From positions 2,903,293 to 2,967,292 of the forward strand of contig NZ_CP147020.1 of NCBI RefSeq assembly GCF_037126435.1: a stretch of 64,000 nt of DNA. Reading direction: 5' to 3'. Both the position numbers and the translations under genes were made by a program. The stretch comes from Bernardetia sp. ABR2-2B (GTDB taxonomy: Bacteria > Bacteroidota > Bacteroidia > Cytophagales > Bernardetiaceae). Shown in pieces: positions 39,642 through 40,603 of the stretch (the stretch's first letter is position 1; the number at the start of each line of letters is the position of its first letter). A model generated the notes under the pieces. It was not told the DNA's origin, did no database searches, and worked only from the letters and a program-made list of their open reading frames with translations.

Positions 39642-39683
39642 TGAAATAAAAAATGGACAGACACCTAACCTATGTGCCTGTCC
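39642..39683 (-). terminator. Terminator of RNA module 1
   Basis: On the minus strand, directly after the tRNA-Leu discriminator: 10-bp stem GGACAGGCAC / GTGTCTGTCC (one G-U), 9-nt loop, then ATTTTTTATTTC. Almost identical to the terminator at 40175-40214, differing mainly in the loop (CACATAGGTTAGGTGT against CACATAGGTGAGGTGT). Confidence 0.9.
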
Positions 39684-39684
39684 G

Positions 39685-39768
39685 TAACAATAGTGGGAAT
39701 CGAACCCACACGCCTATTAAGGCACTTGATCCTGAGTCAAAAGCGTCTACCAGTTTCGCCATATTGTT
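39685..39768 (-). tRNA. tRNA-Leu (CAG), atypical A1-U72 acceptor
   Basis: Class II tRNA on the minus strand: acceptor AACAATA/TATTGTT (perfect, but starting with A-U rather than the usual G-C), D-arm GCG-AAACTGGTAGA-CGC, anticodon stem TTTGA/TCAAG with loop CTCAGGA (anticodon CAG), long variable arm (TGCCTTAATAGGCGT), T-arm GTGGG-TTCGATT-CCCAC, discriminator A. CCA is not encoded. It follows permuted RNA copy 1 and is followed at once by a terminator. The fold looks fully functional. Confidence 0.9.
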
Positions 39769-39795: not shown

Positions 39796-40089
39796 ATTCC
39801 TGTATACTTCTAGTTACCTATTTACAACAGATGACCTTTGCTCTGCCACTGAGCTACGCCCCCAATTGTGATTCAGTTTTTGTGGAGGCGAGAAGATTCG
39901 AACTTCTGCACTAAGTCATACAATCAGTAACCGAAACGGTATAGAAATACATTTAAGCTTACACTATGAGCAAAAAACTTAAACTAAAGAAGCAAATAAA
40001 CCATCTCTGACCAATCAGAGTATCAGCTTATGAGGCTGACAGATTTATCTACTTTTTAAAACTAAAGCGAAGTCTTAGGCTATACTCAT
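39796..40089 (-). ncRNA. Structured RNA with circularly permuted tRNA-like domain, copy 1
   Basis: Minus-strand order: an upstream structured domain (40089 to ~39950), the 3' half of a tRNA (T-arm 39891-39907, acceptor 3' strand CGCCTCC at 39884-39890, discriminator A at 39883), a 19-nt linker, then the 5' half (acceptor GGGGGCG at 39857-39863, D-arm GCTCAGTGGCAGAGC). The acceptor strands pair in all seven positions, with G3-U70, the alanine identity pair. Outside the tRNA part, AAG(G)TCAT (39831-39838) pairs with ATGACTT (39913-39919), GGTAAC (39813-39818) with GTTACT (39926-39931), and GTATA/TATAC and GGAAT/ATTTC continue the helix. ATGAGTA (40083-40089) pairs with TGCTCAT (39966-39972). 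Not a known tmRNA: the D-stem is canonical and no tag is evident. Function unknown. Confidence 0.75.
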
Positions 40090-40174
40090 TTTCTTTTCTT
40101 GATTTTTGTCTAAAACAAATAATCAAATATATCTTTACTATTTTTCACTATGAAGTGAAATATAAATCTCAATT

Positions 40175-40214
40175 TACAAAAAAATGGACAGACACCTCAC
40201 CTATGTGCCTGTCC
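40175..40214 (-). terminator. Terminator of RNA module 2
   Basis: Minus strand: stem GGACAGGCAC / GTGTCTGTCC (one G-U) with a 9-nt loop, then CATTTTTTTGT. It directly follows the 8-nt-loop tRNA. Near-identical to the module 1 terminator, showing that whole modules were duplicated. Confidence 0.9.
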
Positions 40215-40215
40215 G

Positions 40216-40289
40216 TAACAAACACAGGAATCGAACCTGCGCCCCTCGGACTGGAAATTCCGATGCTCTACCGACTGAGCTAATTCGTC
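40216..40289 (-). tRNA. tRNA with 8-nt anticodon loop, identity uncertain (Gly- or Glu-like)
   Basis: Minus strand cloverleaf: acceptor GACGAAT/GTTTGTT (three G-U pairs, including G1-U72), D-arm GCTC-AGTCGGTA-GAGC, T-arm GCAGG-TTCGATT-CCTGT, discriminator A, no CCA. The anticodon stem TCGGA/TCCGA (40259-40263 and 40246-40250) is perfect but encloses eight bases, ATTTCCAG, instead of seven. Depending on how the loop stacks, the anticodon reads UCC (Gly) or UUC (Glu), or a four-base UUCC/UUUC. Expanded loops are the hallmark of +1 frameshift-suppressor tRNAs. It could also be a decoy or decaying gene. Confidence 0.75.
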
Positions 40290-40322
40290 AATCTGTGATA
40301 CTTATTAGTTATCACTCATTAT

Positions 40323-40603
40323 CATAATTTACTAAAAAATTACCTACTTACGTCCAATGACTCTTGCTCTGCCACTGAGCTACGTTCGCATTTTGTTTTT
40401 TTTCTTTGTGCGAACGAGGAGATTCGAACTCCTGCACTAAGCCATAAAATATCAGTAATTTAGAAATTATGAAAATGCTTTGAAGCTTACACTATGAACA
40501 AGACGCTTACACTAAAGAGCAAACCTATTAAGTCATACCAACGAGTTTGTGGCTGGGGCTGTCTGCTTTTTCATACTAAAGCTGAGTCTTAGGCTGTGTT
40601 CAT
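40323..40603 (-). ncRNA. Structured RNA with circularly permuted tRNA-like domain, copy 2
   Basis: Same order as copy 1. T-arm AGGAG-TTCGAAT-CTCCT (40417-40433), acceptor 3' strand CGTTCGC (40410-40416), A at 40409, 19-nt linker, acceptor 5' strand GCGAACG (40383-40389), D-arm identical to copy 1. The acceptor differs from copy 1 at several positions, yet all seven pairs are kept. AAG(AG)TCAT (40357-40365) pairs with ATGGCTT (40439-40445); GGTAA (40340-40344) with TTACT (40454-40458); AAATTATG (40323-40330) with CATAATTT (40464-40471); ATGAACA (40597-40603) with TGTTCAT (40494-40500). Highly conserved single-stranded strings shared with copy 1 include AGCCTAAGACT, CATAGTGTAAGCTT and CTTAGTGCAG. 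Followed by a hairpin (GTGATA/TATCAC) and the 8-nt-loop tRNA. Confidence 0.75.

Follow-up and report, generated by a model that had tools for sequence, protein, structure and literature searches.

Here, we describe a family of RNAs represented by two units on the minus strand of a 64,000-nt stretch of DNA from the marine bacterium Bernardetia sp. ABR2-2B (contig NZ_CP147020.1, positions 2,903,293 to 2,967,292; the window), each of which carries a circularly permuted tRNA-like structure (pTLS) in which the 3' half of the tRNA shape precedes the 5' half. Covariation among homologues indicates that the permutation is real and selected, and across the genomes compared the RNA tracks a protein family, DUF7873, and often occurs without Ro60, the partner of the Y RNA YrlA. 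We propose that DUF7873 binds the permuted RNA as a ribonucleoprotein (RNP) and that the RNA, once its linker has been cut out, would serve as a two-piece, generic tRNA mimic. Judging from sequence, we give this reading, with the family, the protein link and the processing taken jointly, a probability of roughly 70%. Permuted tRNA mimicry is not itself new, being known from YrlA; the DUF7873-linked RNA family is probably undescribed. A literature search that covered few subscription papers returned no description of this RNA, which may be in print elsewhere, and no mention of DUF7873.

Structure and covariation of the permuted domain

In both copies of the pTLS (copies 1 and 2, belonging to units 1 and 2) the order along the minus strand is T-arm, 3' acceptor strand, linker, 5' acceptor strand and D-arm. 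The unit 1 pTLS spans positions 39831-39919, as judged from sequence and covariation, and is closed by an anticodon-like helix (39919-39913 with 39837-39831). Inside this helix lie a T-arm read in the sequence (39891-39907), the 3' acceptor strand CGCCTCC (39884-39890) followed by a discriminator A at 39883, a 19-nt linker (39864-39882) whose proposed excision is suggested by the CCA encoded in homologues, the 5' acceptor strand GGGGGCG (39857-39863) and a D-arm, likewise read in the sequence (39840-39854); both acceptor strands are supported by sequence and covariation. The unit 2 pTLS (40357-40445, same strand and same kinds of support) is built identically, with a T-arm at 40433-40417, the 3' acceptor strand CGTTCGC at 40416-40410, a discriminator A at 40409, a 19-nt linker at 40408-40390, the 5' acceptor strand GCGAACG at 40389-40383, a D-arm at 40380-40366 and the closing helix at 40445-40439 and 40363-40357. 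All seven acceptor pairs form in each copy, with a G3-U70 wobble among those of copy 1.

The permuted structure is strongly supported by compensatory change. Across 20 homologues, 15 of them from the same genus, a structure comprising the acceptor, T-stem, D-stem and anticodon-like helix has 96.7% of its cells paired and double changes in 15 of its 23 pairs; neither value was reached in any shuffle (0/500), and structures slid along the alignment were only 37-47% paired. The D-stem of 4 bp is kept in 20/20 homologues, and the anticodon-like helix, which closes the pTLS in both window copies, covaries. This helix runs on into the flanking strands and the pTLS alignment contains no anticodon loop, so that a decoding anticodon arm is lacking; ARAGORN calls no tRNA inside either copy. 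A search with copy 1 found one to four units in each of the seven genus genomes searched (the window's own and six others), and a covariance model built on 20 pTLS (R1) scores unit 1 at 106.2 bits over 39824-39923 and unit 2 at 108.3 bits over 40350-40449, both being members of the model's own training set.

The initial annotation of this DNA had reported two acceptor-paired permuted domains on the minus strand, with selection for pairing and a canonical D-stem, and had expected homologues to keep the acceptor pairing within each unit; the coordinates, linkers and 7/7 pairing were as it gave them, and the comparison above agrees on each of the other points. Its emphasis on a linker of exactly 19 nt is true of both copies and yet a coincidence, because linker length differs among homologues. 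Both domains were correctly located, although the span it described is only the middle of two longer units, and it overlooked the anticodon-like helix, a 5' domain, a co-encoded tRNA, a terminator hairpin and the link to DUF7873.

Association with DUF7873 and an encoded CCA end

In the loci we read, which come from four families, the RNA is immediately preceded by a gene for DUF7873 (PF25283; E 3e-33 to 9e-82), listed in Pfam as a family of unknown function and without a worthwhile match in NCBIfam or PHROGs. A search with R1 across 390 Cytophagales genomes (the order to which the window belongs), a check suggested alongside the initial annotation, recovered units of the window's type. We counted 25 genomes as carriers: those with an R1 match of at least 58 bits, minus G106, G153 and G191 (59-61 bits), whose matches lie by Ro60 and were read as Y RNAs, plus G032 and G047 (56-57 bits), which inspection of their loci, the shared upstream gene included, led us to accept. 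Weaker true members fall outside this set in G058, G085 and G136. DUF7873 occurs in 31/390 genomes, namely 24/25 with the RNA versus 7/365 without it (Fisher p=5e-31, uncorrected for phylogeny), and the association holds when G032 and G047 are withdrawn (22/23 versus 9/367, p=9e-28). Among the seven genomes with DUF7873 and no counted RNA, three do show a weaker pTLS next to the gene (L217, L221 and L222).

The two also adjoin one another over a wide range of genomes. An R1 match lies directly 3' of DUF7873 on the same strand in 11/30 loci of the order, and the RNA adjoins the gene in G008, of the same family as the window's genome, and in others. A scan of titled genomes gave 34 DUF7873 loci, from records whose labels include Saprospiraceae, Aureispira, Bacteroides, Cycloclasticus, Proteobacteria and Planctomycetota, and 17/34 have an R1 match 3' on the gene strand; DUF7873 was also found in the control genome Deinobacterium chartae and in 73/50,697 phage records. 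A class-wide R1 search at E 1e-13 matched 3/395 genomes, the window's own included and the other two at 52-54 bits.

A further scan made no use of R1. It examined the 700 nt 3' of DUF7873 for three features together, namely a T-stem of 5 bp bearing a T-loop pattern, permuted acceptor strands that pair 7/7, and a D-arm. Such a pTLS is present in 23/42 genome and phage loci, including 9/10 phage loci; of the 44 loci retrieved, two in which the gene runs up to a contig end were excluded. The controls were empty, with 0/41 upstream and 0/840 in shuffles. In the best 80 of 163 viral relatives, 78 of which had enough sequence and 2 of which were too short, the same pattern lies 3' of the gene in 68/78 loci, against 0/78 upstream and 0/390 in shuffles. 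With a slightly wider window, every positive locus holds at least one match clear of any ARAGORN tRNA (71/71 viral, 23/23 others). Between the viral gene and the pTLS, the AGNNUNAG motif occurs 87 times versus 15.3 in shuffles, in 39/52 distinct leaders. Large phages carry the DUF7873-linked RNA, several of them within tRNA arrays. Klebsiella phage FBKp24 (L265:2864-3180) has a pTLS with an encoded CCA 3' of DUF7873 and then a predicted tRNA(UUA); the 3' half of this tRNA could alternatively form a second permuted domain by pairing with a more distal tRNA 5' half.

The viral homologues further bear on how the RNA may be processed. The trinucleotide CCA stands exactly after the permuted discriminator in 54/68 viral first matches, and in 45/60 distinct viral pTLS when the count was rerun with slightly different bounds; a UGG able to pair with this CCA near the linker end is present in 4/45. 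Among the 11 pTLS identified without ambiguity at nine phage loci, nine have CCA right after the discriminator (L259, the first of L260, L261, both of L263, L264 by eye, the first of L265, L266 and L267) and two do not (the second of L260, and L262); the second pTLS of L265 has CCA and overlaps an ARAGORN tRNA, and was therefore left out. Since the viral CCA lies precisely where a tRNA 3' end would be, it lends indirect support to excision of the linker; for the DUF7873 group these sequences are most simply explained by loss of the linker and a 3' half that terminates in CCA. The earlier suggestion that cutting of the linker would leave a two-piece RNA thus gains indirect support from the viral relatives, though not from the window, where CCA is not encoded. 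In this the window copies resemble 55/56 distinct tRNA genes typed in the genome, only one of which encodes CCA, and CCA would be added after cleavage. Among the viral pTLS, 54 different sequences occupy the 5' acceptor strand and each of the four bases occurs as discriminator, which indicates that no one amino-acid identity has been conserved.

Several observations weigh against the DUF7873 RNP reading as a whole. No pTLS was found in 19/42 genome and phage loci or in 10/78 viral loci, and G169, a genome that is 79% complete, has the RNA without DUF7873. The window's own genome encodes DUF7873 at G000:C1:2791526-2792257 (E 1.3e-80), about 150 kb from the window copies and so not adjacent to them, and 19/30 loci of the order have no pTLS beside the gene, the RNA often lying elsewhere in the genome; on both counts the two are not generally arranged as an operon. 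ACAA takes the place of an encoded CCA in the window and in most units from Bacteroidota. A tRNA follows within 250 nt 3' in only 16/68 viral pTLS and can therefore not be a constant component of the RNA. Finally, a predicted DUF7873 model (pLDDT 87.8, pTM 0.75) found no PDB match at E 0.001 in a fold search whose best Z was 4.9, a result that gives RNA binding by DUF7873 no structural backing and says nothing on the novelty of the fold.

The whole unit and its proposed function

Aligning units establishes the order of parts within about 470 nt: a domain closed by a helix, P1, and bearing AGNNUNAG repeats, then the pTLS, then a linear tRNA. The unit closes with a terminator hairpin, whose loop is for instance AUAGGUUAG or AAGGUUAGA, and a T tract. 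In unit 1, on the minus strand throughout, a candidate promoter-like TATATTTG box read by eye (40124-40131) resembles TAnnTTTG, which we take to be the Bacteroidota -7 consensus. It is followed by the 5' domain (39966-40089), defined by alignment, P1 pairing (ATGAG 40089-40085 with CTCAT 39970-39966) and enrichment of AGNNUNAG repeats with a period of 6, and, beyond the pTLS, by a tRNA-Leu(CAG) at 39684-39768 (ARAGORN; Rfam tRNA 53.9 bits) and directly 3' of it a hairpin with a AUAGGUUAG loop and T tract (39655-39683; sequence and alignment). Unit 2 repeats this plan on the same strand, with a 5' domain at 40494-40603 (alignment and P1 pairing, ATGAA 40603-40599 with TTCAT 40498-40494), a tRNA at 40215-40289 with an 8-nt anticodon loop, AUUUCCAG (ARAGORN tRNA-???; Rfam 52.6 bits), and a hairpin terminator with a AUAGGUGAG loop at 40186-40214 (sequence and alignment).

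The 5' domain, about 200 nt long, is conserved mainly through P1 and its repeats. P1 is perfect in 15/15 genus units and in 15/22 units of other genera, with 11 pair types, while strands given swapped partners match in 24/426; the script left 3/40 units unread, and the seven remaining units of other genera have an imperfect P1. The period-6 AGNNUNAG motifs number 66 versus 7.7 in shuffles over 15 genus units and 88 versus 10.2 over 25 units outside the genus. Consensus folding within the genus yields P1 plus two short helices only, and folds of the single units barely beat shuffles (z -1.67 and -0.57). A scan of this domain against Rfam up to E 5 gave no convincing intron or other family, a snoR77 match at E 0.59 being taken for chance. 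Pairing of the terminator loop with the 5' repeats was tried by eye and dropped because no complement is present in those members whose loop is GGATAG. A terminator-like loop near AAGGNUAG recurs in the window (39655-39683), in Cytophagales homologues and in Rhizobium phage L266, a conservation that exceeds what termination alone should need.

The linear tRNA is regular in position and variable in identity. ARAGORN places a tRNA 37-80 nt 3' of the end of the pTLS model, ahead of the terminator, in 37/40 units of the order; of the other three, one meets a contig end (L085) and two have tRNA-like sequence with an anticodon loop that looks paired by eye (L091 and L093). The anticodons are CAG in 10, an 8-nt UUCC loop in 6, GAG, GUC and GCC in 3 each, CAA, GAU and CAU in 2 each, and six others once each; one of the six UUCC loops was read from the sequence by eye where ARAGORN gives 'tc'. 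The UUCC loop of the unit 2 tRNA occurs in 6/7 genus genomes searched and is absent from G003. Bacterial leucine tRNA has a long variable arm, for which six of the ten CAG tRNAs, at no more than 75 nt, are too short; among the tRNAs typed in the window's genome, which are not a full list, there is no second CAG anticodon. Loops of 8 nt (UUCC, GCAG and CGUA) are seen in unit tRNAs of the window (40215-40289) and of the L044 and L048 homologues, and such tRNAs could read four-base codons or be non-decoding. In L045 (G003 C15) a frame 3' of the unit resembles a tyrosine recombinase by eye, perhaps marking a mobile element with the tRNA as its target. Elsewhere in the window's genome, at C1 3438.2-3438.9 kb and 3879.4-3880.7 kb, two dense phage-like tRNA clusters duplicate many anticodons.

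We propose that the linker separating the acceptor strands is excised by tRNA-processing enzymes, and that the product would be a tRNA mimic in two pieces, ending in 3'-CCA, its halves held together by base pairs. Because the RNA adjoins an uncharacterised protein gene in bacteria and in large phages, it is probably half of an RNA-protein particle, with DUF7873 as the other half. In our model, the RNP would use its generic tRNA mimicry to bind tRNA-handling or tRNA-cleaving enzymes, so that the tRNA pool is protected or monitored. This last step, the action on such enzymes, is tentative and in our judgment more apt to be wrong than right. Protection from tRNA damage, or its sensing, is nonetheless plausible given the phage tRNA arrays and a published suggestion that the tRNA-like domain of YrlA could be a competitive inhibitor of an anticodon nuclease (PMC7790460).

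The same observations can be turned into a somewhat different account, in which the tRNA part and the mimic are themselves decoys or sensors for anticodon nucleases in phage-host conflict. The carriage of the RNA by large phages, several times inside tRNA arrays, would fit, as would the YrlA suggestion and the way in which anticodons vary while the tRNA bodies stay. The pTLS alone, however, having no anticodon, would not fool an anticodon nuclease; YrlA is reported not to be cut by one (PMC7790460); and no effector was linked to the RNA in this analysis. We therefore hold this account to be possible and rather doubtful. Still less probable is a role in cis, with the upstream RNA as a leader governing how the 3' tRNA is matured or expressed. 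The near-constant placement of a tRNA between pTLS and terminator in the order (37/40 units) is what such a leader would predict, but most viral pTLS lack a tRNA within 250 nt, the tRNA anticodon changes between close relatives, and some loci (L091 and L257, by eye) have no normal anticodon loop.

If the RNP reading is correct, bacteria have a further tRNA mimic that is paired with a conserved, functionally uncharacterised protein and spread over Bacteroidota, records labelled Proteobacteria and phages of very different hosts. DUF7873 would gain a first testable role, and unannotated RNA genes would be expected beside it in known phages, for example Arthrobacter phage Racecar.

Comparison with known tRNA-like RNAs

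The closest known relative in architecture is YrlA, the Ro60 Y RNA, which carries a circularly permuted tRNA-like domain (PMC11472068, with PDB 6CU1); its tRNA-like domain is also described in PMC8394870. The order of T-arm, acceptor and D-arm in the RF02553 alignment is that of the pTLS, and the statement in the initial annotation that no bacterial RNA of this kind had been described fails for this reason. One must therefore ask whether the window's RNA is an ordinary YrlA-family Y RNA that binds Ro60, or a diverged Ro60, with DUF7873 incidental. YrlA is the highest-scoring Rfam match to the pTLS, at 28.3 bits over 39807-39934 of unit 1 (E 0.0046, cut-off 69) and at most 38.3 bits among related units. 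Ro60-adjacent Y RNAs also fall under this cut-off (35.3 bits at L056, at most 42.3 in phages), so it cannot separate the groups. There is also some co-occurrence with the TROVE domain of Ro60 (PF05731), present in 92/390 genomes: 12/25 carriers versus 80/365 non-carriers (p=0.006).

Other evidence makes a Y RNA improbable, to about the same degree as the leader. TROVE has no match in the window's own genome or, at E 1e-10, in 13/25 carriers, although a very diverged Ro60 is possible there. A Y motif, GYCGUAR then UUACUUC, read off 11 Ro60-adjacent RNAs (11 and 10 of which hold its two parts by construction), is found in 0/40 units of the window's type and 0/59 viral pTLS; Ro60-adjacent phage Y RNAs that are independent of the 11 show a similar motif; the test assumes that the Y-motif stem holds Ro60. 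These phage Y RNAs have CCA in 1/8 and a median linker of 6 nt, versus 44/59 and 23 nt in viral pTLS (p 0.001 and 0.013); eight were kept for the comparison, two of them odd (linkers of 34 and 52 nt), and none of five Cytophagales Ro60 loci passed the stricter Y RNA pattern. To the points already counted against our reading must be added that some Ro60-adjacent phage Y RNAs do carry CCA, one in the strict set, and that a looser list of Y-motif RNAs adds two CCA-bearing candidates. R1 matches fall into units of the window's type at about 56-112 bits, Ro60-adjacent Y RNAs at up to 61 bits and junctions of tandem identical tRNAs, classes that were told apart by reading loci and not by score alone.

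Both kinds of RNA, then, have a permuted tRNA-like domain closed by a helix of flanking strands and occur in bacteria and phages. The Ro60-adjacent Y RNAs have their outer-stem motif, mostly short acceptor loops and an adjoining Ro60 gene, whereas the window's RNA is without the motif, has longer linkers, often an encoded CCA and a repeat-bearing 5' domain, and tracks DUF7873. The two can share a genome: G003, with four units of the window's type, also has a TROVE gene followed on its 3' side by several Ro60-type Y RNAs in a row, each with a permuted tRNA-like domain (L192:2000-3500, C1). A separate array of tRNA-like units lies just upstream of a gene for a 798-aa protein at L179:740-1930 (the window's own genome, C1 4796.2-4797.4 kb) and L194:41-2437. 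This protein shows relatedness to the RING family of MXAN_6230 and SCO0854 (139.6 bits to NF041916, with a cut-off of 600), and neither of these names was mentioned in the papers covered by our search. Two units of the array look by eye like linear tRNAs, 109-114 nt long, in which a stem resembling that of Y RNA (AGGTCAA..TTACTTC with GATTACC) replaces the anticodon arm; others look permuted, and both circular orders of one shape may therefore coexist.

The permuted, two-piece tmRNA (RF04321) is alike in having the 3' half ahead of the 5' half with a linker between, and many members of the window's family share its CCA end. A role in trans-translation is nevertheless very improbable. The acceptor part of copy 1 matches RF04321 at 26.9 bits, under the cut-off of 47, and the lowest E among pTLS matches, 0.0013, belongs to beta tmRNA (RF01850) at 20.8 bits on copy 1, with a cut-off of 84. 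Permuted tmRNA has a D-arm without a stem, whereas the pTLS homologues have a canonical D-stem throughout, and a canonical tmRNA sits elsewhere in the window's genome (102.7 bits), which rules out the pTLS as the cell's own tmRNA. The G3-U70 pair, a feature in favour of tmRNA, is present in 11/20 homologues but in 1/60 distinct viral pTLS; alanine charging through it was considered and set aside as not general.

Least probable of all is functionless recombination debris, whether fragments of tRNA or tRNA genes in tandem, an outcome foreseen with the initial annotation: weaker R1 matches do arise from identical tRNAs in tandem, and one of the two Klebsiella phage matches overlaps a predicted tRNA, but covariation leads us to reject such debris, and the kept position 3' of DUF7873, the empty upstream controls and the tRNA-free match in every positive locus speak against it as well.

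The order of halves is also that of algal permuted tRNA genes, in which the 3' half likewise lies ahead of the 5' half; the pTLS differs in having no decoding anticodon arm, its place being taken by a longer helix joined to the 5' domain. The large-phage setting is shared with phage tRNA arrays and RNA-repair genes (PMC7824862), whereas the window's RNA is apparently non-decoding and has its own neighbouring protein family. Bacterial tRNA-mimic RNAs named in a review are tmRNA and Y RNA (PMC8394870). We consider it about an even chance that the RNA described here is a third class of bacterial and phage tRNA mimic beside tmRNA and YrlA, a linker-excised, two-piece, CCA-ended RNA that, as an RNP with DUF7873, would guard or manipulate tRNA in phage-host conflict or stress. 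An RNA of this kind would suggest that tRNA shapes have been built into larger RNAs repeatedly by circular permutation.

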